From a virus: 37,115 nucleotides of DNA. Positions 17,859 through 37,090 of this stretch are shown here, in pieces. Location: positions 1 through 37,115 of the IMG/VR virus record IMGVR_UViG_3300028498_000017; one strand, 5' to 3'. Position numbers and translations under genes: made by a program. Positions within the stretch are counted from its first letter, which is position 1. Every line of letters starts with the position of its first letter. The notes beneath the pieces are model-generated. The model saw nothing but the letters and a program-made list of their open reading frames with translations, ran no database searches and was not told the DNA's origin.

Positions 17859-19079
17859 TTATGGGGCGATTGCCAAAGAGCCTTTGACAAATGCTTGTGG
17901 ACGATAGACGGTCAGAGTTAAGCGCTCTTCAGCACGGACTGATACCATATTTTTCTCAAAGTCATCGGCATTCTCAGTAGAGACGATAACGTTCGCATCT
18001 TCACGGTCAAAGATTTGCGCGGCATCGGCAAATGAGCCAGTCAAGAAGTTGCCAAGCATGCCCGCCTGATTAGTTTGCGCGACTGGCAAACCCCATAAGC
18101 GTGCTTCTAACGTACCAAATGGATTGCTGAATAAGTAACCTTTAGTGTTGGCATCTTTGATCAGCTCAATGTCGGTCCAATCGATATCGTGCATCACATG
18201 GCCAGTTGCTGATAGCTCAGCCAAAGTTACTTGCAGCATTGCCAAGCGCATAATATCCAGGCTGTTTGAAGGCGTAGTTTTAGTGCTAGGATTGGCAAAT
18301 GCTTGTGCTTGCGGATAGATACCATGCAAGTTATTACCTACACCGCTACCAAATAGCAGCTGTGTATCTTCGACACGCTTTAGACCGTTAAGTAAACGAC
18401 CATTGATAATGCTTCGTAGTTGTGGCAAATCATCAAGCGTCTGCTTAGCAATTTTCATTAGGTGAGCCACTGTCTTGACGCCAGACAACACTTCTTCAAA
18501 CTCAATATTCGAATATGGCTTGGTCGTATTTTCAGCAACCGGCGCAGCATTATTGGTGAATAATGTCTCACGCAGATAAGCAACCGCATTTGATTCAGTA
18601 TCACCTGGCGCCAATAAATCACGCACAGTTAAGCGCTGGTTTGGATTGGTAATAATCTGAGTAGTACCATCAACTGGATTTACAGCAAATGAAGTCAATG
18701 CTGCGCGAGGTACATCAATAGCTAAGCGGCGACCAGCAACTACAGAGTTACTAAACTCAATAATGCTATCGTTTGCGATGACAAGATCACCTGCGCGATT
18801 ACGGGCTGGTGCTTGGTTGCCACCATTACCAATGCGTGCGAATAACTGCTCAGCTTCACCCAGTTCAGTTTGTAACTTATTCTGGGTATCACGCATCGTG
18901 TTTAAATCGGTAAGCAACTTATCGACTTCATTCTTGGTTTTCTCTGATAGTTCGCCAGCTTTTTGAGCTTCTTTTAAAGCGTTTTCCGCTGCCGGCAACG
19001 TTTTTTCAGTTAGCTCTTTGACGCTAGCATTGACTTGCTTTAGCTGTTCAGCCGTTTGATCTTTATTTTGATCAGACAT
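17859..19079 (-). CDS. Major capsid protein, HK97 gp5-like
   Basis: The 406-residue product has a charged coiled-coil delta domain at the start (about 1-75, NKDQTAEQLKQVNASVKEL) that serves as the internal scaffold and should be removed by the protease encoded next door. The rest has HK97-fold motifs (FAVNPVDGTTQIITN, VRAEERLTLTVYRPQAFVKG at the end). The lysine and asparagine needed for HK97 cross-links cannot be assigned by eye. Terminator hairpins stand on both sides. Confidence 0.92.
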   Translation of the reverse strand: MSDQNKDQTAEQLKQVNASVKELTEKTLPAAENALKEAQKAGELSEKTKNEVDKLLTDLNTMRDTQNKLQTELGEAEQLFARIGNGGNQAPARNRAGDLVIANDSIIEFSNSVVAGRRLAIDVPRAALTSFAVNPVDGTTQIITNPNQRLTVRDLLAPGDTESNAVAYLRETLFTNNAAPVAENTTKPYSNIEFEEVLSGVKTVAHLMKIAKQTLDDLPQLRSIINGRLLNGLKRVEDTQLLFGSGVGNNLHGIYPQAQAFANPSTKTTPSNSLDIMRLAMLQVTLAELSATGHVMHDIDWTDIELIKDANTKGYLFSNPFGTLEARLWGLPVAQTNQAGMLGNFLTGSFADAAQIFDREDANVIVSTENADDFEKNMVSVRAEERLTLTVYRPQAFVKGSLAIAP

Positions 19080-19092
19080 AATTTTTTCTCAC

Positions 19093-19116
19093 AAAAAAAG
19101 CCGCCATATAGGCAGC
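19093..19116 (-). terminator. Terminator-like hairpin between protease and capsid genes
   Basis: On the minus strand GCTGCC and GGCGGC pair over six bases (one T:G) around TATAT, followed by seven T. It lies just after the protease stop and before the capsid gene. Confidence 0.62.
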
Positions 19117-19137
19117 GAGGTGAATGGTTGAGTTTGT

Positions 19138-19986
19138 TTATTTCAGTTTGATTGAGTTAATCGCATTCTGCAGATCATCAATCAACCCCGATAAGTCAAC
19201 GCCAGCGTTTTGCGTAGCATCTGTTTGAGTAGCGCTAGGCGTACTCTTTAAATCTTTTACAAGACCACGGCGTTCTTTACGAGACATACCCGCTTGCGCC
19301 ATGATTAAATCTAGTTTGTGAGCTGCGATGCGCTCTTTAGCAGTATTGTTGGTTTGCTCTGCAATCACATCAGAGTCCAAAAAGCTATCAGCCATACCTG
19401 TTTCAACAGCTTGCTTGCCATTGATCCAAGTCTCTTTATCCATCTGCAGTGATAGCTCAGTCGCCTCCATACCACTTTTGACATGATAAATATCAGCAAT
19501 AGTTGCATCGATTTGCTCTAAAAAATCAGCCACTTCGCGCATATCGTTACGATTGCCACCAACACCGGTCCATGCATTGTGAATCATAAAGAAGCCAGCA
19601 CGCGCAATCTTAACTTCATCAGCCGCCATTGCGATAAACGAGGCGGCGCTTGCAGCCATACCAAGTACTCGCACGGTTACATGACCAGCATATTCGCGCA
19701 GCATGTTGTAGATTGCCAAGCCTTCGAACACATCACCACCAGGTGAGTTAATATTAACGACGATATCTGCACCGTTAAATCTTTTGAGTTGAGCGCTGAT
19801 AGACTTGCCAGTGATACCACCATCGGTCCACCAGTCATAGCCAATAACCTCTAAGATATTAATAACGTGTTCAGAGTCATCATCTGACGCTTTGATGTCT
19901 GGATTCCATTGATCCAAAGCAAGCGGCATTCTTACATCATGCGTTGCTTCAAAATCAGCTTTTGGCATCATTGTTCGCTTGCTCAT
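19138..19986 (-). CDS. Prohead protease, ClpP-like serine peptidase
   Basis: The ATG at 19986 (MSKRTMMPKADF) is chosen, as GGAG lies nine bases upstream; earlier starts reach 20025. The 282-residue product has the ClpP-fold landmarks NINSPGGDVFEGLAIYNML (78-96), the serine in GMAASAAS (Ser113) and the histidine in FFMIHNAW (His136). It should cut the delta domain from the capsid protein during head maturation. It overlaps the end of the portal gene by 32 bp, which suggests coupled translation. Confidence 0.9.
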   Translation of the reverse strand: MSKRTMMPKADFEATHDVRMPLALDQWNPDIKASDDDSEHVINILEVIGYDWWTDGGITGKSISAQLKRFNGADIVVNINSPGGDVFEGLAIYNMLREYAGHVTVRVLGMAASAASFIAMAADEVKIARAGFFMIHNAWTGVGGNRNDMREVADFLEQIDATIADIYHVKSGMEATELSLQMDKETWINGKQAVETGMADSFLDSDVIAEQTNNTAKERIAAHKLDLIMAQAGMSRKERRGLVKDLKSTPSATQTDATQNAGVDLSGLIDDLQNAINSIKLK

Positions 19987-21235
19987 CTTTGGTAACTCCA
20001 TTGTAGTTTGTGCCCACTTGATCAAGCGGGATTAATGCTGATTGGATAGTATATTTATCACCACCTTCAATCGGCGGCATATTTTCTTTTGAACGGACTT
20101 CATCGCGGTTTATCCAACCGTTATTCAGACCTGATGAATAGTATTCAGAGCGCGTCTTACTGTCTGCTCGTAGCAAGCCTTCGACATTAAACTCAACATA
20201 GTATTTATCACTATCAAGTTTGCCAATAAGACAACGTAGTATCTCTTGCTCAATATTGACTAGCAGCGGTCTAAATGTGTACTTCAAAAAGTGTAAGTCT
20301 TGCGCTTCAGCAGAAGCCGCCCATGAGCTTTGTTTGTCAAAATGGCCAATCATGATGGGCGATACACGGAACCAACGACAGATCTCTTCAATCTCAAAAG
20401 AGCGTGTCTCAAGCATTTGCGCCGCTTCCGGGTTCATGGTCACGCCGTTATATTGCATTCCATGCTCGAGTACCATAGTCTTGCCAGCGTTGCTGCTACC
20501 CATAAATCTTTCTATATGCTTACTTAAGCTAGTACGTTGCTCTTTATTAAGCTTTTCTGAAGTGGTTAAAAACCCAGAGGTTTGCAATCCATTCTCAAAG
20601 AACTTACCAGCTGCTTGCTCAGCGGATGCAGCAGTAGCAAATGTTTCGCGGCCCTTATTAATGGTAAAGATACCCATCACGCCATCAACACCAAAGGCAC
20701 GAATATGCATAACATCTTTATGATTAATTTCTCGGCGCGTACCTTCATCTGTGTAGTGATACTGCAGTAGTTGATTGTTTTTATTGCGCGTCACGCTTAC
20801 GTGCTGAGGCAATAGCGGCTCAAGAGAGATGATTCGCTTGCCTGTGATATTGCGCTTAATCTCAACGTAAGCATTACCCCAAAGCAATAGACTTGCCACA
20901 ATCATTTGCATGAATCGTGCAGGTGTCATCTCATAATTGGGTGATCGGCATAGCAAGTCATATAGAGGATGTTGTTTGGCCACCACACGACTACCGTCAG
21001 CTTTAGTTTCATAAACCTTTAGCGGCAATGTTGATACTGTCTCAGCCACTAAGCGCACGCATGAAAACACAGTACTAAGTTGTAAGGCGCTATCAACAGT
21101 GACGTTTTTGCCGCTGGCTGTTCTGGTAGACACATTATCGCTAGGCGTTAGACTCAGATGTCCATCCAAGCCTAAAAAACTGATTGCGGCTTTTGCAGCT
21201 TTTGCAAAACGCTTGGGCTTGATTAGATTAAGCAC
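19955..21235 (-). CDS. Portal protein, HK97 gp3-like
   Basis: The 426-residue product starts with GTG at 21235, seven bases after AAGGA. It has the portal signatures TASGKNVTVDSALQLSTVFSC near the start, LPLKVYE, LLWGNAYVEI and LLRADSKTRSEYYSSGLNNG near the end. Twelve copies form the ring through which DNA enters. It follows the large terminase by 16 bp and overlaps the protease. Confidence 0.93.
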   Translation of the reverse strand: MLNLIKPKRFAKAAKAAISFLGLDGHLSLTPSDNVSTRTASGKNVTVDSALQLSTVFSCVRLVAETVSTLPLKVYETKADGSRVVAKQHPLYDLLCRSPNYEMTPARFMQMIVASLLLWGNAYVEIKRNITGKRIISLEPLLPQHVSVTRNKNNQLLQYHYTDEGTRREINHKDVMHIRAFGVDGVMGIFTINKGRETFATAASAEQAAGKFFENGLQTSGFLTTSEKLNKEQRTSLSKHIERFMGSSNAGKTMVLEHGMQYNGVTMNPEAAQMLETRSFEIEEICRWFRVSPIMIGHFDKQSSWAASAEAQDLHFLKYTFRPLLVNIEQEILRCLIGKLDSDKYYVEFNVEGLLRADSKTRSEYYSSGLNNGWINRDEVRSKENMPPIEGGDKYTIQSALIPLDQVGTNYNGVTKDEQANNDAKS

Positions 21236-21251
21236 ATTGAATCCTTAAATA

Positions 21252-22991
21252 TTAAACGCCGATCATGATTGGGTCATCGTAGAAGCCGTTGTCACCACTA
21301 CCGCCGTCACCTGCCAGCACCATTGCACGGCTGATACCCATTAACAGAGCAACAGCACCATCAATTTTCTTGTAGTTGGTTTCTTTACGCGGGAATACGT
21401 TGTTATTCGCATCTTCGCGTGATACCACATTGCCAATCATCCAAGATAAGACTGGGTGGCCATCGTGATGGAACCGCCCGCCTTTCATAGCTGCTTCTAA
21501 TTCACGCATAGCAGGAGAAAAAGACTTGACCGTCTTAGGAATCTTTACGGCGTCATATCCCGCGGCTTCGATAGTGGCGGCGACCTGGAAACCACCCCAT
21601 TCATCGTAAGGTACTTCGGTTAATGGAAAGCTACCTGCATCAGAAACCAAATCTTCAGCAATGGCATTCAGGTCATTTTCAGCACCATCATGCACTTCAA
21701 GCAAACCTTGATTCATCCATTTCTGGTACCGCTCAACCGCTTGTTTCTCATCACCCTTATAAACCGTGTCTTCTGGTAAATAAAACCATGGTGCCAAGCA
21801 GTAGTAATGAAGCTTGCCATCGTCCTCATAGCGATAAAACAGATTAATACGTGCTGCAATATCGATTTTTGACGCCAAGTCAATTGGCATCACACAAGGC
21901 GTGGTTGAAAAATCATCAATAATTAGCATGTCATCAGCACACGCGCGCCAATGTTCCATATTAAAGAAGGCAGATTTTGCAGATACCCAAACATTAAGAT
22001 GCTTGGTCTTAAAAGAGTTTTGACGGCTAGCGTTATTGATAGCCTTGGTTTGCTGTGACTCTAAGAAGTCAGCATATACAGATACGTCGTAATTAGGGTT
22101 GGCTTTAATAAGCACCTTTGGGTCGGTCCAATCATCACCTTCATCAATACTCCAAATCCAACCAAACAGCTCATCGTCTGGCACATTGCCCAGCAGCATA
22201 TCTTGCACACGGCTGCGCAGCTCGTAGCAAGGGCCTTCAATGTTGTGACCGGCAGTGGTGATAACAAATATCATCGGCTGGCGGCGTGCGCCCATACCCG
22301 TTTGCATCGTGTCATAAAGCCTGCTATCAGGATGCTCATGATATTCATCGACGATGGCGCAATGTGGTGACTGACCATCTGGCGGGTCACCGATAATAGG
22401 CTCAAACAAAGAACCATCATCAGGACGCTCGAGACTGGCTGCATTAATCTGTATGCCAGTGGCCGCTATTAGATCGGGCGAACGCATTACCATTAAGCGT
22501 GCTGGTTTAAATACTTCCCACGCTTGCTTCTCAGTTGTGGCGCCAGAATAAACCTCGCTACCAAATTCACCATCATTGGCAAACATATTAAGAGCGACAC
22601 CGGCAGCAATTGCAGACTTACCATTCTTGCGTGGTACTTCCCAATAGGACTCACGGAAGCGTCTGAACCCATCTTTTTTACGAACCCAACCGAACGTGAC
22701 CGCGATACCAAATTTTTGCCATGGCTCAAGCTGAATTTTCAAGCGCTTTAGGGCCCACTCACCTTTGGTGTGTGGTAGCAACTCAACGAAAAGTATCTTT
22801 TTTTCGGCTGCTTTTGGGTCAAATTTATATAGATAGTTGCGTTTTTTCGATGCTTTCAAGTCATCTAAGTGACGTTGGCAAGCCAAAACCACCCACTTAC
22901 ACGCTGGAATTTTGCCTTTGACGACTGAGCGAGCCCACTTATTGGCGATATCAACATTAGGATAATCAGCCATAATCTCTCGCTTGAGCAT
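21252..22991 (-). CDS. terL: Terminase large subunit
   Basis: The 579-residue product is the packaging motor and nuclease. The ATPase half shows the Walker A motif PRKNGKS (120-126) and the Walker B motif CAIVDEYHE (211-219). The nuclease half has acidic residues in PIDLASKID and DEWGGFQ. It belongs to the Terminase_1 group typical of HK97-like phages. Its start touches the stop of the small subunit (TAGATG); an ATG six codons on (22973) is an alternative. Confidence 0.95.
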   Translation of the reverse strand: MLKREIMADYPNVDIANKWARSVVKGKIPACKWVVLACQRHLDDLKASKKRNYLYKFDPKAAEKKILFVELLPHTKGEWALKRLKIQLEPWQKFGIAVTFGWVRKKDGFRRFRESYWEVPRKNGKSAIAAGVALNMFANDGEFGSEVYSGATTEKQAWEVFKPARLMVMRSPDLIAATGIQINAASLERPDDGSLFEPIIGDPPDGQSPHCAIVDEYHEHPDSRLYDTMQTGMGARRQPMIFVITTAGHNIEGPCYELRSRVQDMLLGNVPDDELFGWIWSIDEGDDWTDPKVLIKANPNYDVSVYADFLESQQTKAINNASRQNSFKTKHLNVWVSAKSAFFNMEHWRACADDMLIIDDFSTTPCVMPIDLASKIDIAARINLFYRYEDDGKLHYYCLAPWFYLPEDTVYKGDEKQAVERYQKWMNQGLLEVHDGAENDLNAIAEDLVSDAGSFPLTEVPYDEWGGFQVAATIEAAGYDAVKIPKTVKSFSPAMRELEAAMKGGRFHHDGHPVLSWMIGNVVSREDANNNVFPRKETNYKKIDGAVALLMGISRAMVLAGDGGSGDNGFYDDPIMIGV

Positions 22992-23456
22992 CTACATATT
23001 AAGGACACCTGAAAATGGGTTTGTTTGTTCTTTATTGCCAACGCCAGTTAAGCGCTGACGCGAAGATGGGTCAAGGCCAAGCAAACTACCAAAAGTCGCC
23101 ATTTGTCTTACTGCTTCATTGAGTGCTGTTAATGCTGGGTTCTTGATTGTGCTTCCACCTTCAGTGGCTAAAGTTATACCGTTTAAAGCAATCTCTTTTT
23201 GGCACTCACGATAGTTATCATAGGCCATACAGAAAACTTCGACGTTATGCATGTCGGTAATTTTTAGCAGCTCGTTTTCTAAAAGCTCAGGTACTATCGA
23301 GCGCCAAATCATCGGTGCAAATTCTAGGCCGTCCATATAATCGGGCGGGTCAATATCAGTAACATTACTAAATTCTGGAACGTTGATATTTTTGCCTTTA
23401 GATTTTTTCGGGTCCGGCTTGCGACCTCGACCCGGTACCGCCGCCAAACCTCCCAT
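22992..23456 (-). CDS. terS: Terminase small subunit, P27 family
   Basis: The 154-residue product begins with a proline- and lysine-rich stretch (VPGRGRKPDPKKSKGKN) and continues with a helical core (MIWRSIVPELLENELL at 48-63; YDNYRECQKEIALNGITL at 79-96) and the family tail FGSLLGLDPSSRQRL. It recognises the packaging site on phage DNA, which should lie close by. It abuts the large subunit. Confidence 0.9.
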   Translation of the reverse strand: MGGLAAVPGRGRKPDPKKSKGKNINVPEFSNVTDIDPPDYMDGLEFAPMIWRSIVPELLENELLKITDMHNVEVFCMAYDNYRECQKEIALNGITLATEGGSTIKNPALTALNEAVRQMATFGSLLGLDPSSRQRLTGVGNKEQTNPFSGVLNM

Positions 23457-23504
23457 ACCATAAATTCCTTAGCTTAGTCAACGGGCTAAACTTTTAATTA
23501 AACG

Positions 23505-23580
23505 CGCGTAAAAATGTACTTTAGGGGGCGGTCACACGGGGCTTCCGGCTGAAGTGCAATCATACCCCCTACCTTACACT
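23505..23580. other. Candidate cos/packaging region
   Basis: A 142-bp gap between the small terminase and the next gene holds an abrupt GC-rich patch (GGGGGCGGTCACACGGGGC, about 23524-23542) inside AT-rich sequence, and a CCCCC run (23564-23568) that can pair with the G-run. HK97-like phages keep their cohesive-end site next to terS and an HNH gene, as here. No overhang can be read from a prophage. Confidence 0.35.
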
Positions 23581-23598
23581 GCATTAGCTAAGCTAAAT

Positions 23599-23823
23599 CT
23601 AATCAGTCAACCGCTTTAATTCTTCGTATAACTCAGAGTTCAATTGCTCTATTTCATCTAGTGATTCTGCTGTTGCCGCAAGCACTGATGAGCCATTGCT
23701 AAGTGTGATTTGTATGCACCAGTAGTAACTGGAATTGTATTCATTAACTCGCTCAAAAACAGAGGTTGAGACAATGTTATTAACGTTAATCAAAGACTTT
23801 CCAATCTTAATAAACTTAGCCAT
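23599..23823 (-). CDS. Small hypothetical protein near packaging genes
   Basis: The 74-residue product (MAKFIKIGKSLINVNNIVST at the start) alternates beta-like stretches and ends in an acidic helix (EQLNSELYEELKRL). I do not recognise it. It starts 5 bp after the HNH gene stop, so the two are probably translated together. Confidence 0.6.
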   Translation of the reverse strand: MAKFIKIGKSLINVNNIVSTSVFERVNEYNSSYYWCIQITLSNGSSVLAATAESLDEIEQLNSELYEELKRLTD

Positions 23824-23828
23824 ATCAA

Positions 23829-24173
23829 TTACTCATTAGCTGTTTTGGTTCGGTGACACTTCTTACAGAGCGATTGTAGGTTTTCAAGCTCATCTGTACC
23901 TCCGTTTGCTTTATTAATTATGTGATCGACGTCGGTGGCTGGCACGAATCTACCTGCCTGCTTACAAGCCATGCAAAGATAACCATCACGCTCAAGTACT
24001 TGCGCACGAATCTTACGCCAAGCATGTCCATAACCTCGCTTGGTTGTGCTGCCTGTCCTGTCTGGTCGCTTGGTCCAGTTGCTTCGTTGGTCTGCATGCT
24101 CATCACAGTATCCTTTGTCTTTTCGTTTAACTAAGTTCGGGCATCGGTATTGACGGCAAGGTGTGGACGGCAT
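23829..24173 (-). CDS. HNH endonuclease
   Basis: The ATG at 24173 (MPSTPCRQYRCPNLVKRKD) is chosen over one five codons earlier, because GGAAA lies upstream and the family starts this way. The 114-residue product has an N-terminal zinc-binding set (CRQYRCPN, GYCDEH), then the nuclease core: LERDGYLCMACK, VDHIINKANGG and NLQSLCKKCHRTKT. HNH proteins next to terminase help cut at cos in HK97-like phages. It overlaps the preceding small gene. Confidence 0.9.
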   Translation of the reverse strand: MPSTPCRQYRCPNLVKRKDKGYCDEHADQRSNWTKRPDRTGSTTKRGYGHAWRKIRAQVLERDGYLCMACKQAGRFVPATDVDHIINKANGGTDELENLQSLCKKCHRTKTANE

Positions 24174-24349
24174 GGCTTTGGTTTCCATTTATTATTATCA
24201 GGCTCAATCATAGCCATGTACTTCTTAGCATCGCTGTTGCCATTGTTAGCTCTAGCAGTAAGTAGCTTCAGGTTTGAGTCTCTATACTTTAGCGTCTCGC
24301 CTGTTCGGTAGTTGTTATACAGCGTTTCGCTTGTGCACTCGTATCGCAT
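24131..24349 (-). CDS. Small hypothetical protein, overlaps HNH gene
   Basis: The 72-residue product starts MRYECTSETLYNNYRTGET. A middle helix (LKLLTARANNGNSDAKKYMAMI) precedes a basic, proline-rich tail. No family is recognised. Its last 43 bases overlap the start of the HNH gene in another frame. It lies about 35 bp after the terminator that follows the tRNA, and its ribosome site is weak. Confidence 0.5.
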   Translation of the reverse strand: MRYECTSETLYNNYRTGETLKYRDSNLKLLTARANNGNSDAKKYMAMIEPDNNKWKPKPCRPHLAVNTDART

Positions 24350-24380
24350 AACAACAGCCTCGCTACCAAACGTTAGATAT

Positions 24381-24410
24381 AAAAAAGCCCACGCTATTTC
24401 TAACGTGGGT
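24381..24410 (-). terminator. Terminator downstream of the tRNA
   Basis: On the minus strand CCCACG and CGTGGG form a six-pair stem (24387-24409) with a ten-base loop, then six T. It lies 47 bp after the tRNA 3' end and before the packaging genes. Confidence 0.72.
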
Positions 24411-24456
24411 AAGGAAGATTTTTGGTACCGTCATTGATGAGGGTACCACTTTGATT

Positions 24457-24533
24457 TGGCCCGTTGGGCAGGACTCGAACCTACGACCTCATACATCAGT
24501 GTAATGCGCTCTAACCAACTGAGCTACCTACGG
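24457..24533 (-). tRNA. Aberrant tRNA, anticodon position CTG (Gln?)
   Basis: The 77-base cloverleaf has CCGTAGG/CCAACGG as acceptor (one A:A mismatch), G73 and an encoded CCA, a perfect D-arm (GCTC/GAGC), AGGTC as variable loop and a T-arm GTAGG-TTCGAGT-CCTGC. The anticodon arm is odd: stem CATTA/GTATG pairs in only three of five positions, and position 33 of the loop (CACTGAT) is A instead of the near-universal T. By position the anticodon is CTG, and G73, A37 and T38 agree with glutamine tRNAs. An alternative fold gives a six-pair stem with a bulge and a CTGA tetraloop. It may be a decaying gene or one altered to escape anticodon nucleases. Confidence 0.7.
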
Positions 24534-24534
24534 G

Positions 24535-24676
24535 ATAAGATGCGCCATCACATCATGATGACTACACGCCACATGCAACGCGCATCAATCAGTGAGGGCT
24601 TCGATTTGGTTGCAGTGCCACCTGCTAGCGGGTGTCTCTATGGCATGTGCTGACTGTGGCTAAATCAATCAGGCAT
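24535..24676. other. Gap upstream of tRNA, no gene seen
   Basis: Between the tRNA and the terminator after the 274-residue gene I see no open frame with a ribosome site on either strand. The only local structure is a short inverted repeat (CACCTGCTAGCGGGTG, about 24619-24634, one mismatch). It could be tRNA leader sequence. Confidence 0.4.
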
Positions 24677-24712
24677 AAAAAAAAGACGATAGCAATTAAG
24701 CTGTCGTCTTTT
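24677..24712. terminator. Terminator at end of the early operon
   Basis: On the minus strand AAGACGACAGC and GCTATCGTCTT pair with one mismatch around TTAATT, followed by eight T; the plus strand also ends in a T-run. It lies 80 bp after the stop of the 274-residue gene, at the junction of early and late gene blocks. Confidence 0.75.
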
Positions 24713-24792
24713 ATTTCTTTGGCTCTACTTACAACTGAAGCCAGTATAAGAAATAGTACCCCATTCGGCAGTCATGGGTCAAGCACTATAGC

Positions 24793-25617
24793 TCATTGAG
24801 CTGCTGATAATTCTTTTCGGTAAGTACTAACATAATGATCAGCATCGACAACCATGTCGAATAGATCCTGAAGCATTTGACGTTGGTATGTTAACCAAGC
24901 ATGGCTATAAGTATTAACGTTAATCTTTATGCCTGAGAACTGCAACCGACCTTTCACTGTGTATATATCCCACAGCTCGTACAATTCAAAATGCAGCACC
25001 ATACGTGCCATCAGTCGTGCTAATTCTGGGAGACTATGAGTGCATGCCTGCGGTGCAGCACGCTTATCTTTATTGCATCGCTCAATCATATTGGCTGCCA
25101 GATACTGCACGACCTCATCGAAATGACGTGACCAGTTCCAGTTAGTGTCACTACCCCATAGCAATATACTTGCCAGCGCCTTGGCTGGCTTGTCATCAAT
25201 CATAGCGATAGCAGCACAATGGTCTTCCCAGTTTACTTCTGGCGGTAATCCACCGGAACCAATATTAAACTTAACAGTCTTGGCATGCATGCCTTGCTCA
25301 AGCCAGTCTTGATTTGATAGCTGCAGGTTTGGAGACTGGCCAAAGTTATTAGGCAACTCATCAATCCATGCACAGGTAAACTGACCATGCTTAGACTTTT
25401 CCTTTACTGGCTGCGGCTTATCCGATACTTCTTGCGCTCGGACAACTGGCACGGCGTAACGAAGGAATTTATCAATAGATATAACTCTCTCTCTTGTACG
25501 ATTTGGATTGTTCAGCCATTTAAACCTAAGTTCGTCTTTATCATAATCGACATGCAGCACTTCCATTACCTCGCCTGCTTTGTCGAGCCATTCGGTCTTG
25601 ATTTCGATATCAGTCAC
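24793..25617 (-). CDS. Unknown protein at the late-regulator position
   Basis: This 274-residue protein starts with GTG at 25617, overlapping the previous stop (GTGA). Residues 1-60 form a beta-rich region (EWLDKAGEVMEVLHVDYDKD) with a domain-like break near 85. The C-terminal half is helical and rich in aromatic residues and histidine (LARLMARMVLHFELYELWDI). I do not recognise the family with certainty. It is the last gene of the early transcript and stands before a strong terminator, the tRNA and the packaging genes, which is where a Q-like antiterminator or late activator is usually found. That role is inferred from position only. Confidence 0.6.
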   Translation of the reverse strand: MTDIEIKTEWLDKAGEVMEVLHVDYDKDELRFKWLNNPNRTRERVISIDKFLRYAVPVVRAQEVSDKPQPVKEKSKHGQFTCAWIDELPNNFGQSPNLQLSNQDWLEQGMHAKTVKFNIGSGGLPPEVNWEDHCAAIAMIDDKPAKALASILLWGSDTNWNWSRHFDEVVQYLAANMIERCNKDKRAAPQACTHSLPELARLMARMVLHFELYELWDIYTVKGRLQFSGIKINVNTYSHAWLTYQRQMLQDLFDMVVDADHYVSTYRKELSAAQ

Positions 25618-25763
25618 TTTTTACCACCTTTTTTAGTCTTACGATTATTGCGTGGCTTATGTGGTATGTAACCCTGACCTTTGAACTCTGATGGGTTACA
25701 TATACCATGAGTCTGTTGCTTAAGCATTGCGATGATTCTGTGGCTATCCTTTATCTTACTCAT
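25614..25763 (-). CDS. Small basic protein (49 residues)
   Basis: The ATG at 25763 follows a strong GGAGG. The product (MSKIKDSHRIIAMLKQQTHG at its start) ends in a very basic, probably disordered tail (KPRNNRKTKKGGKK). Its stop overlaps the GTG start of the next gene, so the two are coupled. The basic tail suggests nucleic-acid binding. No family is recognised. Confidence 0.7.
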   Translation of the reverse strand: MSKIKDSHRIIAMLKQQTHGICNPSEFKGQGYIPHKPRNNRKTKKGGKK

Positions 25764-25779
25764 AGATTCCTCCTAAAAA

Positions 25780-25968
25780 TTACCATTCGGGTTCGTTTAA
25801 ACCTTTTACAAAAACAACAAAAGCTGCGAAGCCAAGCATAATTAGAGATATCCCCCACTGCCTAGAACTGAACCCAGCGCCCGCAATAAGCTCTACATAA
25901 GCCATCACTATAGAAGGCATGCCAAATGCAATAAAAATAAGTAGACATGCCTTAGTCGAATTTTTCAA
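25780..25968 (-). CDS. Small two-helix membrane protein
   Basis: The 62-residue product has hydrophobic segments at about 8-28 and 38-56 with a short polar loop (GFSSRQWG). Both ends are polar, so a hairpin in the inner membrane is likely. It is read with the early genes, 4 bp after the zinc-ribbon gene. Function unknown; small early membrane proteins in phages often block superinfection. Confidence 0.6.
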   Translation of the reverse strand: MKNSTKACLLIFIAFGMPSIVMAYVELIAGAGFSSRQWGISLIMLGFAAFVVFVKGLNEPEW

Positions 25969-30189: not shown

Positions 30190-30915
30190 ATGAGCACATT
30201 AGCAGAGAGGGTTAAGCTGGCTAGAGACAGGTTGAATCTATCTCAACAAGATGTGGCAGATGCCACTGGTATGTCTCAGCCAAGTTATTACAAGATAGAA
30301 AAAGGGCTTACAAAGCGGACTACATATATCAATGAGCTCGCTAAAGTTCTAGAAACTAACGTCGATTGGTTGATGTACGGAGAAGGCGATAACACGCCAA
30401 AGCCAAGCCGTGACGATCTAATGCAGAAGATAAAAGATATAGAGGGTCGCAGTGGAGGTGAAAACCATCCAGTACCAGACGGCACTACAAGTGCAAGAAT
30501 GTCTAGTGGCTCAGGCATGGTTCCTATATTGAGCTGGGTCGCCGCGGGTAGTTGGTCTAATGTAGATCCTGTGACATTTGAAGATGCTATTGGTGAAGCG
30601 CCAAAGCCCCCTAACCTGTCTAAACTTGGTTTTGCATTGCGTGTACAAGGGCAAAGCATGCTGCCAGAGTTTAAGCCTGGTGAGGTTATTTATGTCGAAC
30701 CACAAACAGGATTTCTTGCACTCAAAGATAGCGATCTTGTCATCGTACAATGCAATGATGATAAAGAAGCGACGTTTAAGCAGCTAGTACTAGGCGAAAC
30801 GTCAGATGATATGTACCTGAGACCGCTTAATCCCAACTGGCCTGAGCAAAGAATGGTACCGATGGGTGAATGTAATTTGGTAGGTAAAGTCGTGGGCAAA
30901 TATGTCGAATACTAA
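30190..30915 (+). CDS. cI: CI-type repressor, S24 self-cleaving
   Basis: The 241-residue product has an N-terminal helix-turn-helix (LSQQDVADATGMSQPSYYKI, 17-36) and a C-terminal S24/LexA-like peptidase. The cleavage site is Ala119-Gly120 (VAAGSW), with Ser156 (GQSM) and Lys197 (ATFKQL) as catalytic pair. It should keep the lysogen silent by binding ATAAC-N4-GTTAT sites and be inactivated through RecA during the SOS response. GGAGG lies 7 bases before the start. Confidence 0.95.
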   Translation: MSTLAERVKLARDRLNLSQQDVADATGMSQPSYYKIEKGLTKRTTYINELAKVLETNVDWLMYGEGDNTPKPSRDDLMQKIKDIEGRSGGENHPVPDGTTSARMSSGSGMVPILSWVAAGSWSNVDPVTFEDAIGEAPKPPNLSKLGFALRVQGQSMLPEFKPGEVIYVEPQTGFLALKDSDLVIVQCNDDKEATFKQLVLGETSDDMYLRPLNPNWPEQRMVPMGECNLVGKVVGKYVEY

Positions 30916-32755: not shown

Positions 32756-33115
32756 ATGGATAACGATATTTTAAAGCTTCTTCATCAAATGGGTATAACA
32801 CCGCTTGATTGGGTAGACGCAAAGCAGTTTGCTGAATTAACTGGCATTGATGAAAAGAAGCTCACTCACCGTAAGCAACACTGGCCAGAAAACGTTGTTT
32901 GGATGAAAGAAACTGGTAACCTGTATTATTCAATAAGAGGATATAACAAGTGGATGACGCAGCAGGCAGACATACGTTACCGCAAGGCGTGCGGCTTAGA
33001 TCGGGGCGCATCCAGATCTACTTTAGCCGAAACGGTAGCTCCCATCACGTCACGCTCCCACACCCAGTCACTGCGGAAGGCATCAAAGCAGCTGCTAAGA
33101 TTAGACGCGACTTAA
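32756..33115 (+). CDS. Excisionase-like protein, overlaps integrase start
   Basis: The first 65 residues (PLDWVDAKQFAELTGIDEKK, then HWPENVVWMKETGNLYYSIR) form a winged-helix excisionase-like domain that should bend DNA at attR and tip the integrase towards excision. After residue 65 the frame runs for 55 codons over the integrase start in another frame, giving a Ser/Thr/Arg-rich tail of doubtful function. Position before int and size of the core support the call. GGAG lies 7 bases upstream. Confidence 0.75.
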   Translation: MDNDILKLLHQMGITPLDWVDAKQFAELTGIDEKKLTHRKQHWPENVVWMKETGNLYYSIRGYNKWMTQQADIRYRKACGLDRGASRSTLAETVAPITSRSHTQSLRKASKQLLRLDAT

Positions 33116-34104
33116 TCACCAAGGCTGAATGGGGCGTGCTCACAGAAGCAGATCTCGCCAGCGCTAAGGGTAAAATAGTTAATGATGATAGTGTCATCGT
33201 TGGTGATGGCGCTTTATTCCAAGAAATCGCCCAAAAGTATCTGAAGCACTGTGAAGCCAATACCGACTCCAAAAAAGACTACGTGAGTGCATTGAACAAG
33301 CATTGGATGCCTGAAATGGCACTGATACCCATTCACGAAATAACGTCTGACCTAATACGTGACATCATCTCTGACATTAACTTCAAGTCTGACAAGACCT
33401 TTAATAATTGCCTAGTACCACTGCGCGGTGTCTTTGAAAAAGCCATTGAGCTTCGATTAATCACACCTGCAGAAAACCCCATGGCCATGATTAAGAATAA
33501 AAAGGTGCAATCAGGACTACCTGATCCATTCACCCGTGATGAAATGAATGCCTTACTAAATTGGTTGGATAAGAACTTGGCAGATAAGGACCATTTTTAT
33601 TATTGGTATTTTGAAGTAGCGTTTTGGACTGGATGTCGTCCTAGTGAGCTGAACGCTCTAAGATGGAAGGATATTGACTGGTTCAACGGCTCAGTGATCA
33701 TTAATAAAAGCCGTGTGCGCGGCGTTGAGAAGCAAGTTACCAAAACTCATACAGCGCGTGAAGTATATTTGAATGACCGCTCGAAGCGTGCATTTGAAGC
33801 ACTGGACGCTATGAAGCTGAGTGAAGACTATGTGATGATATGTCCAGAAACGAATGAGCCTTTCTACAATGAAAAGCCTGCCCGTATGCGCTTGATTGAA
33901 GCAATGAAGTCTACGAGGGTGAGACATCGCCCAGCATATAATGCCAGACACACCTATGCCACAATGCTACTCATGTCAGACGTGAATCCCGTATTTGTCG
34001 CTAACCAGTTGGGCCATAGCTTACAGATGCTAATTAAGCGATATGGTCGTTGGCTGCATGGTGATCAGAATAAGCTTGAGATATCCAAACTGACAACCGA
34101 CTGA
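32950..34104 (+). CDS. int: Tyrosine-family integrase
   Basis: The 384-residue product starts with GTG at 32950, nine bases after AGAGG. Residues 8-60 (LPQGVRLRSGRIQIYFSRNG) form the Min27/DUF3596-type arm-binding domain, followed by a core-binding domain (about 80-165). The catalytic domain shows Arg230 (GCRPSELNAL), Arg333-His334 (YNARHTYATM), LGHS and Tyr365 (IKRYGRW). Box II has Tyr in place of the first His, a known variant. It integrates the phage at the 3' end of ssrA. The gene lies almost 3 kb from attR, as cargo has been placed between them. Confidence 0.94.
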   Translation: MDDAAGRHTLPQGVRLRSGRIQIYFSRNGSSHHVTLPHPVTAEGIKAAAKIRRDLITKAEWGVLTEADLASAKGKIVNDDSVIVGDGALFQEIAQKYLKHCEANTDSKKDYVSALNKHWMPEMALIPIHEITSDLIRDIISDINFKSDKTFNNCLVPLRGVFEKAIELRLITPAENPMAMIKNKKVQSGLPDPFTRDEMNALLNWLDKNLADKDHFYYWYFEVAFWTGCRPSELNALRWKDIDWFNGSVIINKSRVRGVEKQVTKTHTAREVYLNDRSKRAFEALDAMKLSEDYVMICPETNEPFYNEKPARMRLIEAMKSTRVRHRPAYNARHTYATMLLMSDVNPVFVANQLGHSLQMLIKRYGRWLHGDQNKLEISKLTTD

Positions 34105-34394
34105 CATGTTCTTGTTAGCCGTTCACATTAAACAAAAAGCCTTTCACCCTACTATTAATTTGCATTTGTACAACTATATTTAAGAACTTGACGTAAATTA
34201 TAGATGCTTATTAATATTGCTAAAATCTTACTAATCAGTTAAATTTGATGAACATTTTTTTACTGTGTCATCATGAAAGACTAATGATTATCAGTTTTAT
34301 TTTAGATTTCAATGAAGAAGTGAACTTGAAGATACAGCAATTGGATTGGTACATGTATCTTCAAGCTTTGGATTGGAATTAAATAAGGACTTTT
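34105..34394. other. AT-rich gap between integrase and cargo
   Basis: No open frame with a ribosome site is seen on either strand. The gap holds the cargo promoter (34188-34217). No clear terminator after int is visible, so int transcription may continue into the cargo. Confidence 0.5.
34188..34217 (+). promoter_or_regulatory. Putative cargo operon promoter
   Basis: TTGACG (34188-34193), an 18-base spacer and TAATAT (34212-34217) resemble a sigma-70 promoter about 175 bp before the first cargo gene. No ATAAC-N4-GTTAT operator is present, so the cargo should be active in the lysogen. Confidence 0.5.
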
Positions 34395-34700
34395 ATGAAA
34401 AAAATATCTGCTATTTTGTTATGTGGAATGATCTCTCTTAGCGCTTCGGCGTCAGATTTAGAGGACTTAGCTAAGGATGGTTACGGTGTTATAGATGAAA
34501 CATCTGTGACGGATAACAGCTTCAATGGCTGCGACCATGGCAAAGTAATTGCGTTCGACAATGGATTAAAATTCAAGTGTTCAGAATATAATTACCATTA
34601 TAGTTATAATCCAGATGTGTATATATTGAAGCATGTTCAATACAACGACTACAAAGTAGTTATAGATGATGAAGAGTTTGAAGGCTCTTTGGGGAGGTAG
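34395..34700 (+). CDS. Small exported protein, cargo gene 1
   Basis: The 101-residue product has a signal peptide (MKKISAILLCGMISLSASAS, cleavage near 19-20) and a short mature domain with two cysteines (GCDHGK, FKCSEY) that may form a disulfide, followed by a tyrosine-rich strand (YNYHYSYNPDVYILKHVQYN). Proteins like this occur in Moraxellaceae phages, to my memory without known role. AAGGA lies 7 bases before the start. Periplasmic location suggests lysogenic conversion or superinfection exclusion. Confidence 0.7.
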   Translation: MKKISAILLCGMISLSASASDLEDLAKDGYGVIDETSVTDNSFNGCDHGKVIAFDNGLKFKCSEYNYHYSYNPDVYILKHVQYNDYKVVIDDEEFEGSLGR

Positions 34701-34704
34701 CTTT

Positions 34705-34926
34705 ATGAAGATGCTATTCCTCGTCATGTTGGCACTACCTATCTTGGCATGTAGCAATGATCCTAATAGCGAGCCTAAATATGGCGATTCGGGTTTACCT
34801 GCTAATTGTAAGGCATACATCCAAGTTAGCGTGGATGCGTGGCGTGCTGGTCAATATGAAACAGAAGAAACTATGAATGCGATAGAAAGAAATTGTGGAA
34901 CCTATGGCGACTTATGGAATGAATAA
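34705..34926 (+). CDS. Small lipoprotein, cargo gene 2
   Basis: The ATG at 34705 follows GGGGAGG; longer frames from 34666 are unlikely. The 73-residue product has a lipoprotein signal ending LPILAC, so the mature protein is an acylated Cys followed by SNDPNSEPK. The body has two more cysteines (NCKAYI, NCGTYG) and a helix (QVSVDAWRAGQYETEETMNA). It starts 4 bp after gene 1. Function unknown. Confidence 0.75.
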   Translation: MKMLFLVMLALPILACSNDPNSEPKYGDSGLPANCKAYIQVSVDAWRAGQYETEETMNAIERNCGTYGDLWNE

Positions 34927-34947
34927 CTCATGAAAAGAGCTTCAACT

Positions 34948-35241
34948 ATGCATAAACTAATACTGGCCGCATCGCTCTCTATATTTGCGATGTCATCCAA
35001 TGCTGCCGTCACTACAATCGATAACCCCTTCAAAAGCAACACAGTTTTAAAAGAGCCTGTCGAAGTAGATCATCCATTATTTGCAAAAGGCTCTGGTGGT
35101 TCTCAATGTAAGGGCCTACCTAGTACTTGTGGCCAAATGGTTAACTGTGAGCAAGCTAAGCAGGCATTGAAGTGTGGTAATAAGCGACTAGATCGTGACA
35201 AGGATGGTGTGCCATGCGAATCGATATGCCCAGGTGGTTAA
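34948..35241 (+). CDS. Exported Excalibur-domain protein, cargo gene 3
   Basis: The ATG at 34948 (MHKLILAASLSIFAMSSNAA) is preferred because the signal peptide begins there; an ATG at 34930 adds six residues. The C-terminal half is an Excalibur domain: CKGLPSTCGQMVNCEQA, then LDRDKDGVPCESIC, with the DxDxDG calcium-binding loop and paired cysteines. Excalibur domains occur on secreted proteins, often with nucleases. Here it stands almost alone, as a small periplasmic protein. The gene ends inside the next one. Confidence 0.85.
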   Translation: MHKLILAASLSIFAMSSNAAVTTIDNPFKSNTVLKEPVEVDHPLFAKGSGGSQCKGLPSTCGQMVNCEQAKQALKCGNKRLDRDKDGVPCESICPGG

Positions 35242-35615
35242 TTAGCATCTTTGTCTTACCTTTGATTGCATGCTCTCCTGCTCAAGACGATAGCCATAAG
35301 TTTGTTTCTGGCGATGTTGCGGTGCATGAAGTGTTCTGGGCCGTTGATCATGATACACCCTACCCGTTTACGACATCGGGTGAGATCTCTTGTGTCTATT
35401 ATCCAGAGTTTGGCACTGAGGTGTATTTTGAACCTGCAGGCTATAGTGAAGACTCGTCCATTGGTACGCCTCTTAATAAGGCCGCTGCTAAATCTCTGAA
35501 GCGTGACGACATGACTCCAAACGTGCCTTATAGCATTAAGAAAGGTGCCGACTTGAGTGAGGCCGTGCAGGTTGGGTTAAAGGTGTGTGATGAAATGCTT
35601 GAAGATGGTAATTAA
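35214..35615 (+). CDS. Lipoprotein, DUF2511-like, cargo gene 4
   Basis: The ATG at 35214 follows AAGGA by nine bases and lies within the end of the Excalibur gene (28 bp overlap). The 133-residue product has a lipoprotein signal ending LPLIAC. The mature part (YPFTTSGEISCVYY, then a C-terminal LKVCDEML) recalls the DUF2511/YebY family, in which WPF-type and C-terminal Cys segments recur; this match is from memory. Its overlap suggests it works with the Excalibur protein. Confidence 0.7.
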   Translation: MRIDMPRWLISIFVLPLIACSPAQDDSHKFVSGDVAVHEVFWAVDHDTPYPFTTSGEISCVYYPEFGTEVYFEPAGYSEDSSIGTPLNKAAAKSLKRDDMTPNVPYSIKKGADLSEAVQVGLKVCDEMLEDGN

Positions 35616-35639
35616 GGATTGTTTAAGCCAAATAAGGAT

Positions 35640-35666
35640 ATGAATATGAGTCAATACAATGGGTAG
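35640..35666 (+). CDS. 8-codon leader frame before the two-gene cassette
   Basis: ATG at 35640 follows AAGGA closely (35632-35636) and a second ATG at 35646 is better spaced. The frame encodes MNMSQYNG and stops at 35664-35666, overlapping the start of the next gene (ATGGGTAG). It may be a leader that couples translation, or the true N-terminus of the next protein separated by a one-base frameshift. Confidence 0.4.
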   Translation: MNMSQYNG

Positions 35667-36162
35667 TAGTAGAAATTATAATCTAGACGCAGATGCGTTA
35701 AATCATTATGTAGATATAGATAAAACTATAGATAGCGATGTAGTTTTCAAGCACTATCCGCGTGTATCAAAACGTACTCCCACTGGTTATCATCAATGGA
35801 AAAGCACCTATATCTTATCCAGCAACGATACGGTAGATAACTTATACCTTACTCTTAAATCGATGCGCAATATCGATTATGAATATCATTCATTTTTACT
35901 ATCTTATAGGCATAAGGGTGTTGAAAATTTTATATATCATCTAGAAGTATATCCAGATTATGAAATGAGTCACAGAGAGCCTAATGGCGAGAGTATTTTC
36001 GGCTCTCATATTCATCATTTAATGCGGAAAGTAGTTCCAGCTAGACCTGATGGTTACATTAACTTTACATGGTATGAATGGTTAGAATACTTTAACCAAC
36101 AGACAAATATAACCATCAATGCTAAAGTAATATCAGCATTTGATGGGGAGCTAGACTTATGA
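35659..36162 (+). CDS. Two-gene cassette, first protein (unknown, HIH-motif)
   Basis: The 167-residue product from the ATG at 35659 lacks a ribosome site of its own and probably depends on the 8-codon frame that overlaps it. The protein is rich in Tyr and His. Its core is FIYHLEVYPDYEMSHREPNG (about 95-114) followed by FGSHIHHLM, an arrangement reminiscent of DUF6978/TumE-like proteins (HREPNG ... G-x-HIH), which occur in toxin-antitoxin-type pairs. That likeness is from memory and weak. The end overlaps the next gene by four bases (ATGA). AT-rich sequence suggests recent acquisition. No signal peptide, so it is cytoplasmic. Confidence 0.65.
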   Translation: MGSSRNYNLDADALNHYVDIDKTIDSDVVFKHYPRVSKRTPTGYHQWKSTYILSSNDTVDNLYLTLKSMRNIDYEYHSFLLSYRHKGVENFIYHLEVYPDYEMSHREPNGESIFGSHIHHLMRKVVPARPDGYINFTWYEWLEYFNQQTNITINAKVISAFDGELDL

Positions 36163-36863
36163 TGACTCTAAATAAGAGCGGATTTTTGCAGCAAGGATTT
36201 CATATCCGTGAGTCTGAAAACCACTTGGCTGTTACTACCCCGCAGACTTTTATTAGTGGTGATCCTGCTAAGTTTTGGGTAATACAAGACTTTGAAGACC
36301 TATTGTTTAATGACTATGGGTTTTCCCAAAATGCGTTGGGCTTATCTTTACCAAACCCAGATAAAACAGATGAGGTAATTAAATCCACTCTTGAAAAGTT
36401 GGACTCTAAAATATCTTTTGATGGTTTTGCTCTAACTCGAAAAGTCAAACAAGAGCAAGTTGGAGTTGCTATGGGTGAGTTTCTAAACCTATACGCCATG
36501 TTAACTAGCTATCAACCGAAAAATATAGCACAACAGGATGTTATGGCTATTTTAGACAATATTCTTATTTATCTAAATCGCAAATACAGTACTGTAGAAA
36601 GAGATGTAAAGCTGAAAGGGTTTTCTGGTAGTAAACATAAATTTTCTTTTCAGGCAGATGACACGTTAATTGATTTTGCTACGCCTAGCAGTAAAAGCAC
36701 AGGGGCTCTATTGCGTAAAATACAAGACGTCAAGGCCATATATGAAGATTTTGAGTTTAGCGTAATACTTGATGATACCAATAAGGTTAGTTTTGAAAAA
36801 GAGAGTAGTATTCTTTCAACTATTGGAAGTGTTACCCCATACAGTTTAGTTGCAGCCGCCTAA
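36159..36863 (+). CDS. Two-gene cassette, second protein (DUF1828/DUF1829-like)
   Basis: The 234-residue cytoplasmic product starts with a region (GFHIRESENHLAVTTPQTFI, DPAKFWVIQDFEDLLFNDYG) resembling the DUF1828 pattern of a strand pair followed by a 'display' segment with conserved D/E. The second half (DDTLIDFATPSSKSTGALLR, about 166-185) recalls DUF1829. Such proteins often sit beside small partners in toxin-antitoxin or defence-like pairs. It overlaps the first gene by four bases and is followed by a strong terminator, so the pair ends the cargo operon. Function is not known; family call from memory. Confidence 0.65.
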   Translation: MMTLNKSGFLQQGFHIRESENHLAVTTPQTFISGDPAKFWVIQDFEDLLFNDYGFSQNALGLSLPNPDKTDEVIKSTLEKLDSKISFDGFALTRKVKQEQVGVAMGEFLNLYAMLTSYQPKNIAQQDVMAILDNILIYLNRKYSTVERDVKLKGFSGSKHKFSFQADDTLIDFATPSSKSTGALLRKIQDVKAIYEDFEFSVILDDTNKVSFEKESSILSTIGSVTPYSLVAAA

Positions 36864-36878
36864 ACTGTATCAAACACT

Positions 36879-36918
36879 GAACAATAAAAAACCCACTATA
36901 AGGTGGGTTTTTTATTGT
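36879..36918. terminator. Bidirectional terminator ending the cargo operon
   Basis: AACAATAAAAAACCCAC and GTGGGTTTTTTATTGTT pair perfectly over 17 bases around a six-base loop, with long T-runs in both directions. It isolates cargo transcription from ssrA. Confidence 0.9.
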
Positions 36919-37002
36919 TCAGTTAATAAACCACTTACCCTAATAGTAAACTTAGAACCACTGTACAAAAATGGATAGCGACATACTCTTGCCAGCCAAT
37001 CG

Positions 37003-37061: not shown

Positions 37062-37090
37062 TTTGGTGGAGATGGCGGGAGTTGAACCCG
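37062..37090. repeat. attR: attR core repeat (29 bp)
   Basis: Identical to 21-49. The tmRNA 3' end with CCA lies at 37064-37090 on the minus strand and continues rightwards, so this junction restores a full ssrA end. Confidence 0.9.

Follow-up and report, generated by a model that had tools for sequence, protein, structure and literature searches.

The DNA analysed here (37,115 nucleotides, positions 1 to 37,115 of the IMG/VR virus record IMGVR_UViG_3300028498_000017, hereafter the window) is an almost complete Psychrobacter prophage of the Psymv2 kind; compared with window positions 17859-25800, Psymv2 shows a DNA identity of 82.7% over 94%. Two copies of a 29-bp core, TTTGGTGGAGATGGCGGGAGTTGAACCCG, lie at 21-49 (attL) and 37062-37090 (attR), the latter within the 3'-terminal part of the tmRNA gene (Rfam RF00023, 37064-37115), and the prophage is integrated in this gene, ssrA. 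The minus strand carries the lytic genes, and the plus strand a CI-type repressor (30190-30915), a tyrosine integrase (32950-34104; Phage_integrase match), small exported proteins and, last before the attR site within ssrA, the pair examined here, which we call A and B. A minus-strand tRNA-Gln gene (CTG) is found at 24457-24533, within the lytic gene region. The interval from the integrase to the pair holds four small genes, and the plus-strand cargo upstream of the pair at 34395-35615 is exported or lipoprotein-like, with an Excalibur domain in one of the products.

Gene A (35659-36162, plus strand; 167 aa) and gene B (36159-36863, plus strand; 234 aa) overlap by the four bases ATGA and have a G+C content of 34.1% and 36.5%, respectively, against 43.2% for the window. 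The transcript is closed by an intrinsic terminator at 36876-36923, a perfect 21-bp inverted repeat of -32 kcal/mol (z = -9.15; equalled by 0 of 200 shuffles). In protein A, HREPNG occupies residues 105-110 and GSHIHH residues 115-120. A first-pass annotation, made from the letters of the window, had described just such a cassette, AT-rich, overlapping at ATGA, placed between integrase and attR, encoding a HREPNG ... GSHIHH core and ending at a strong terminator, and all of these points hold, with the reading frames at exactly the coordinates above. Both are real genes, as homologues in other phages keep their length, order and overlap and evolve with dN/dS of 0.03-0.2. A tiny open reading frame (MNMSQYNG, 35640-35666), preceded by an AGGAT-like sequence, overlaps the start of A; it is possibly a leader for translational coupling, or a product of chance. 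A promoter search at the pair found none above chance level. Expression of A and B in the lysogen is likely, though the repressor, on the same strand, lies 4.7 kb upstream.

The pair is part of a plus-strand cargo block (34110-36985) between integrase and attR, whose edges are marked by imperfect 18-bp repeats, GACATGTTCTTGTTAGCC and GACATACTCTTGCCAGCC. In two relatives with integrases 96% (L119) and 87% (L115) identical to that of the window, the att core follows directly on the integrase stop, the 2.9-kb block being absent, and Psymv2, whose integrase begins 97 bp from the record's attP end, also lacks it. Another relative, L107, matches the window at 95.7% identity up to position 35583 and then carries different cargo, a TPR protein plus one of 167 aa that weakly matches HEPN_IX (L107:7810-9162); in L110 the alternative cargo consists of three genes, for a product of 168 aa, an HTH protein matching PDC-M64/M69 and a product of 93 aa (L110:7154-8482). 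The exported or lipoprotein-like cluster at 34395-35615 is kept in L107 at 95.7% DNA identity. Because the block is absent or swapped in relatives, A and B are dispensable cargo, in keeping with the earlier suggestion that they are accessory genes and not needed for phage growth, and the presence of other cargo in L107 and L110 indicates that the site exchanges defence-like or toxin-antitoxin-like genes; the two alternative cargos are themselves possible unrecognised modules of either sort.

Profile searches place B in a family (PHROG 1960, E-value 8.7e-26), and the candidate PDC-M24B of PADLOC matches its residues 9-211 at E = 2.5e-7. Its match to DUF1829 (PF08862) lies below the gathering score (17.6 bits versus 22.2), and neither DUF1828 (PF08861) nor DUF1829 matches above that score; the B protein of L061 and L073, 39% identical to it, passes DUF1828 (27.1 against a cut-off of 22), so that B is related to DUF1828/DUF1829 by transitive homology, a likeness that the first-pass annotation had already pointed out. 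Protein A matches PHROG 2017 (2.6e-10) and nothing credible in Pfam, NCBIfam or PADLOC: it has no Pfam match, to DUF6978 (PF22398) or otherwise, and no PDC-M24A match at E <= 1. Profile comparison with three DUF6978 proteins aligns A over the HxH region (E = 7e-4, at a low probability of 26), and the two have in common a signature of K, H and HxH. Within the A family, K22 and H117 are present in 24 of 24 sequences (L095 and L096 included), and G115, H119 and H105 are kept at 94%, 90% and 88% by weight.

In the canonical pairs L066, L095 and L096, a DUF6978 gene is followed by a DUF1828-DUF1829-type B gene with an identical 4-base overlap, and L066, the only one of them scanned against PADLOC, matches both PDC-M24A and PDC-M24B. 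The window pair is thus like PDC-M24 in having A then B, adjacent, on the same strand and overlapping by four bases, in being found by PDC-M24B, and in the K...H...HxH residues of A; it differs in that PDC-M24A and PF22398 miss its A, that its B stays below the Pfam cut-offs, and that it belongs to a repressor-linked phage branch. Judged by sequence, A-B is a divergent phage branch of the candidate PDC-M24 (DUF6978 plus DUF1828/DUF1829), and because A fails PDC-M24A we file it as a variant of PDC-M24 and not as a member. PDC-M24 is a predicted candidate, and a literature search did not find it by name. The first-pass description of the system as undescribed was nevertheless too strong, given that the combination is already listed by PADLOC.

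The surroundings of distant chromosomal relatives are of defence type. In L065, a B-type gene with a small H...HxH protein upstream stands directly before an MmeI restriction enzyme, and PDC-M24-like pairs may be part of some MmeI operons. The enzyme, of the MmeI restriction-methylation type (L065:2348-5233), overlaps the B-type gene by 4 bases. In L067, where no A was recognised, the B-type gene is flanked by a DUF6079 protein on one side and a DNA-methylase-like protein on the other, an arrangement reminiscent of BREX, and ImmA/IrrE-type peptidases (Peptidase_M78) directly follow the DUF6978 pairs of L095 (3548-3973) and L096 (3740-4129). A DUF1829 protein is also found in DS-6/HipAD, a validated E. 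coli defence system in which that protein partners a HipA-like kinase; there, defence is shown, and predictions give a complex and contact with DNA (PMC13092281). The likeness to A-B lies in two genes with a DUF1829 protein partnering a putative effector; the systems differ in that the HipAD effector is a HipA-like kinase and its partner combines DUF3037 with DUF1829, whereas the window B has a DUF1828-type N-terminal domain. Protein A has no kinase family match.

Scanning IMG/VR with B gave 39 loci, and further scans added L072, L073 and phages of Pseudomonas type, Helicobacter type and other kinds; E-values from HMMs built in this analysis are internal to it. The closest relatives are 44-46% (L072) and 35-39% (L073) identical. 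Although B alone was the query, an A homologue stands immediately upstream of each phage-branch B recovered, and the proposal that proteins of these two kinds pair up is thereby upheld. The gap between the genes ranges from -20 to +3 bases and is mostly an overlap of 4 or 1 or a gap of 3; it is 131 in two copies with a frameshifted A. Within clades, dN/dS is 0.03-0.20 for A and 0.03-0.11 for B (with many dS values near saturation), and both genes are under purifying selection. Beyond these phages, profile scans of genome contigs returned only one relative, of the 398 genomes sampled in one phylum 9 had B-type matches, and E. coli K-12 matched both PHROGs in a genome scan; a K-12 copy was sought in e14, Rac, CPS-53 and DLP12, with none found there.

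In most relatives, and in nearly all loci with enough flank, a CI-type repressor (HTH plus Peptidase_S24) precedes A on the same strand, usually at 2-500 bp and at most about 1.1 kb; in L072, 2 bp separate the CI stop from the A start. The annotated order in Acinetobacter phage Acba_11 is CI, a small gene, A and B, and the pair likewise stands behind a CI-type repressor in an A. nosocomialis phage-plasmid, Pseudomonas phage P7869 and a Helicobacter pametensis prophage. Two records, either of which stands by itself and may contain an assembly error, have an intact A beside a broken B: Aclw_9 (L003), where B is truncated to 42 residues, and plasmid pANC7933.2 (L005), where it is frameshifted near residue 138. 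Frameshifts of A in L004 and L026 were rejected as evidence, because the strain of L004 when re-sequenced (L006) has an intact A. Phage defence or prophage stabilisation, the functions originally proposed for the pair, are plausible, and the repressor-linked and restriction-linked contexts favour them.

The AlphaFold2 model of A (pLDDT 87, pTM 0.85) predicts a sheet of mainly antiparallel strands flanked by an N-terminal and a C-terminal helix. Structure searches gave A no credible match among solved structures: Foldseek against the PDB returned nothing below E 0.001, and its one match in BFVD is an unnamed phage protein (A0A8S5NGZ0; E 1.4e-5, TM 0.61). C1QBP was considered as a relative and dismissed, the best VIA-align Z of 4.9 being not credible. 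A PDB sequence search found no credible match for the family of A or of B. The predicted fold bears on the reading of the pair as a classical type II toxin-antitoxin system that stabilises the prophage, with A as a translation-blocking toxin like TumE and B as its antitoxin. TumE has a seven-strand antiparallel sheet that carries two helices, and it usually comes after its antitoxin (PMC10584680); it resembles A in being small and alpha/beta, in its H-x-H motif and in belonging to a two-gene unit, and the modelled sheet and terminal helices of A are compatible with such a relation, as are the conserved HxH of A, the GDHRH motif of TumE (DUF6516), the ATGA coupling of the genes and, in HipAD, the DUF1829 partner of a HipA-like toxin. 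However, TumE has about 95 aa, its partners are unrelated to B, A precedes B, and sequence lends the relation no clear support: comparison of A with the TumE profile (PF20126) gives probability 2 and E = 0.023, and A has no Pfam match. The intact A beside a broken B in L003 and L005 argues, if weakly, in the same direction, as it is a poor fit with unrestrained A being lethal. We consider a toxin-antitoxin pair of this kind rather unlikely.

Protein B is in two parts in its predicted model, as the first-pass annotation had supposed; the pTM of 0.54, beside a pLDDT of 88.8, fits two domains whose relative placement is uncertain (the alignments behind the models hold 22-24 rows). Foldseek of the whole protein against the PDB gave nothing below E 0.001. 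Modelled residues 1-120 match YbjN-like proteins and type III secretion chaperones of class I (8q8o, Z 9.5, 110 aligned at 3.2 A; SycN-YscB 8.9; Spa15 8.6; YbjN 7.6), although numerous members of a single fold group score Z 7-9.5, which may reflect a common arrangement. Residues 121-234 match the PD-(D/E)XK core fold, best with AF1548 (Z 10.9, 103 aligned, 2.4 A), followed by BstEII (8.7), EndoMS (8.6), XisH (2okf, 8.4), Card1 (8.3) and PspGI (8.2). These matches, together with the good conservation of R186, K187, D206 and E215, could point to an effector role for B, as an active PD-(D/E)XK nuclease cleaving the DNA of incoming phages, while A serves as sensor or regulator. But those four residues lie outside the canonical site, whose positions we assigned from secondary structure: the first catalytic acid would fall at position 163, which holds S in the window (D 61% and N 25% by family weight), D172 is kept in 79% and lost in some sequences, and none of 22 sequences has a lysine at +2 from it. 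Given this loss of canonical catalytic residues, B is probably a nuclease-fold protein for binding and not for canonical cutting, and we judge an active B nuclease to be improbable.

The resemblance of the modelled C-terminal domain to XisH, an excision-controlling factor, also brings up lysogeny itself: the pair might modulate excision, repressor activity or the choice between lysis and lysogeny and have no bearing on other phages, which would suit its habitual place right behind CI and the ImmA/IrrE peptidases following the pairs of L095 and L096. Yet in the window the pair is part of variable cargo at a distance from CI, it is missing from close relatives, and related pairs or B-type genes stand beside MmeI or DUF6079 and methylase genes, where no lysogeny is evident. 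This makes a role in lysogeny control, to our minds, very improbable.

We hypothesize that A-B is a two-protein anti-phage (superinfection-blocking) module expressed in lysogeny, a phage-borne variant of PDC-M24 in which infection releases the effector A from B, and we give this reading a probability of roughly 0.45. A would be the effector, with K22, H117 and the near-invariant H105 and H119 forming an active site or a metal- or nucleic-acid-binding site; as its predicted fold has no solved relative, it is conservation that argues for this role. The chaperone-like half of B would hold A inactive, and the nuclease-like half would bind nucleic acid or sense infection. Infection by another phage would then free A to act on that phage or on the infected cell and stop phage growth, possibly through arrest or death of the cell. 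In favour of such a module we count the constant pairing, order and overlap of the genes, their purifying selection, their position behind CI, their dispensability and their cargo site; the MmeI (L065), DUF6079/methylase (L067) and ImmA/IrrE (L095/L096) neighbours of distant relatives; the PDC-M24B match of B, its predicted folds and its degenerate catalytic positions; the invariant polar residues of A; and the precedent of a DUF1829 protein partnering a HipA-like kinase in HipAD. Against it we count the 4.7 kb between the pair and CI in the window, and the broken B beside intact A in L003 and L005. The rexAB-type genes of lambda form a pair co-transcribed with CI in the lysogen, and co-transcription with this repressor is similarly inferred for most A-B relatives; the window pair differs in not standing beside CI, and no homology is expected.

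A bolder proposal, which we hold to be doubtful, is that such pairs would form a new class of immunity, in which a new-fold HxH effector is held and set free by a chaperone-like domain joined to a nuclease-fold domain with degenerate catalytic positions; temperate phages from several bacterial groups would carry it as a repressor-operon cassette, and it would occur at restriction loci too. To our knowledge, this would be the first use of a secretion-chaperone-like fold to hold an effector in immunity encoded by phages. PDC-M24 relatives are already listed as a defence candidate, and the novelty would accordingly lie in mechanism and not in pairing. An anonymous PADLOC candidate thus becomes testable, as a compact, conserved and repressor-linked system of Acinetobacter, Pseudomonas and Helicobacter phages, with a domain model and named residues (K22, H105, H117 and H119 in A; D172, R186, K187, D206 and E215 in B). 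The cargo block between integrase and attR is a hotspot worth mining in Psychrobacter prophages, and if the pair does protect lysogens, this would explain a conserved slot in many temperate phages.
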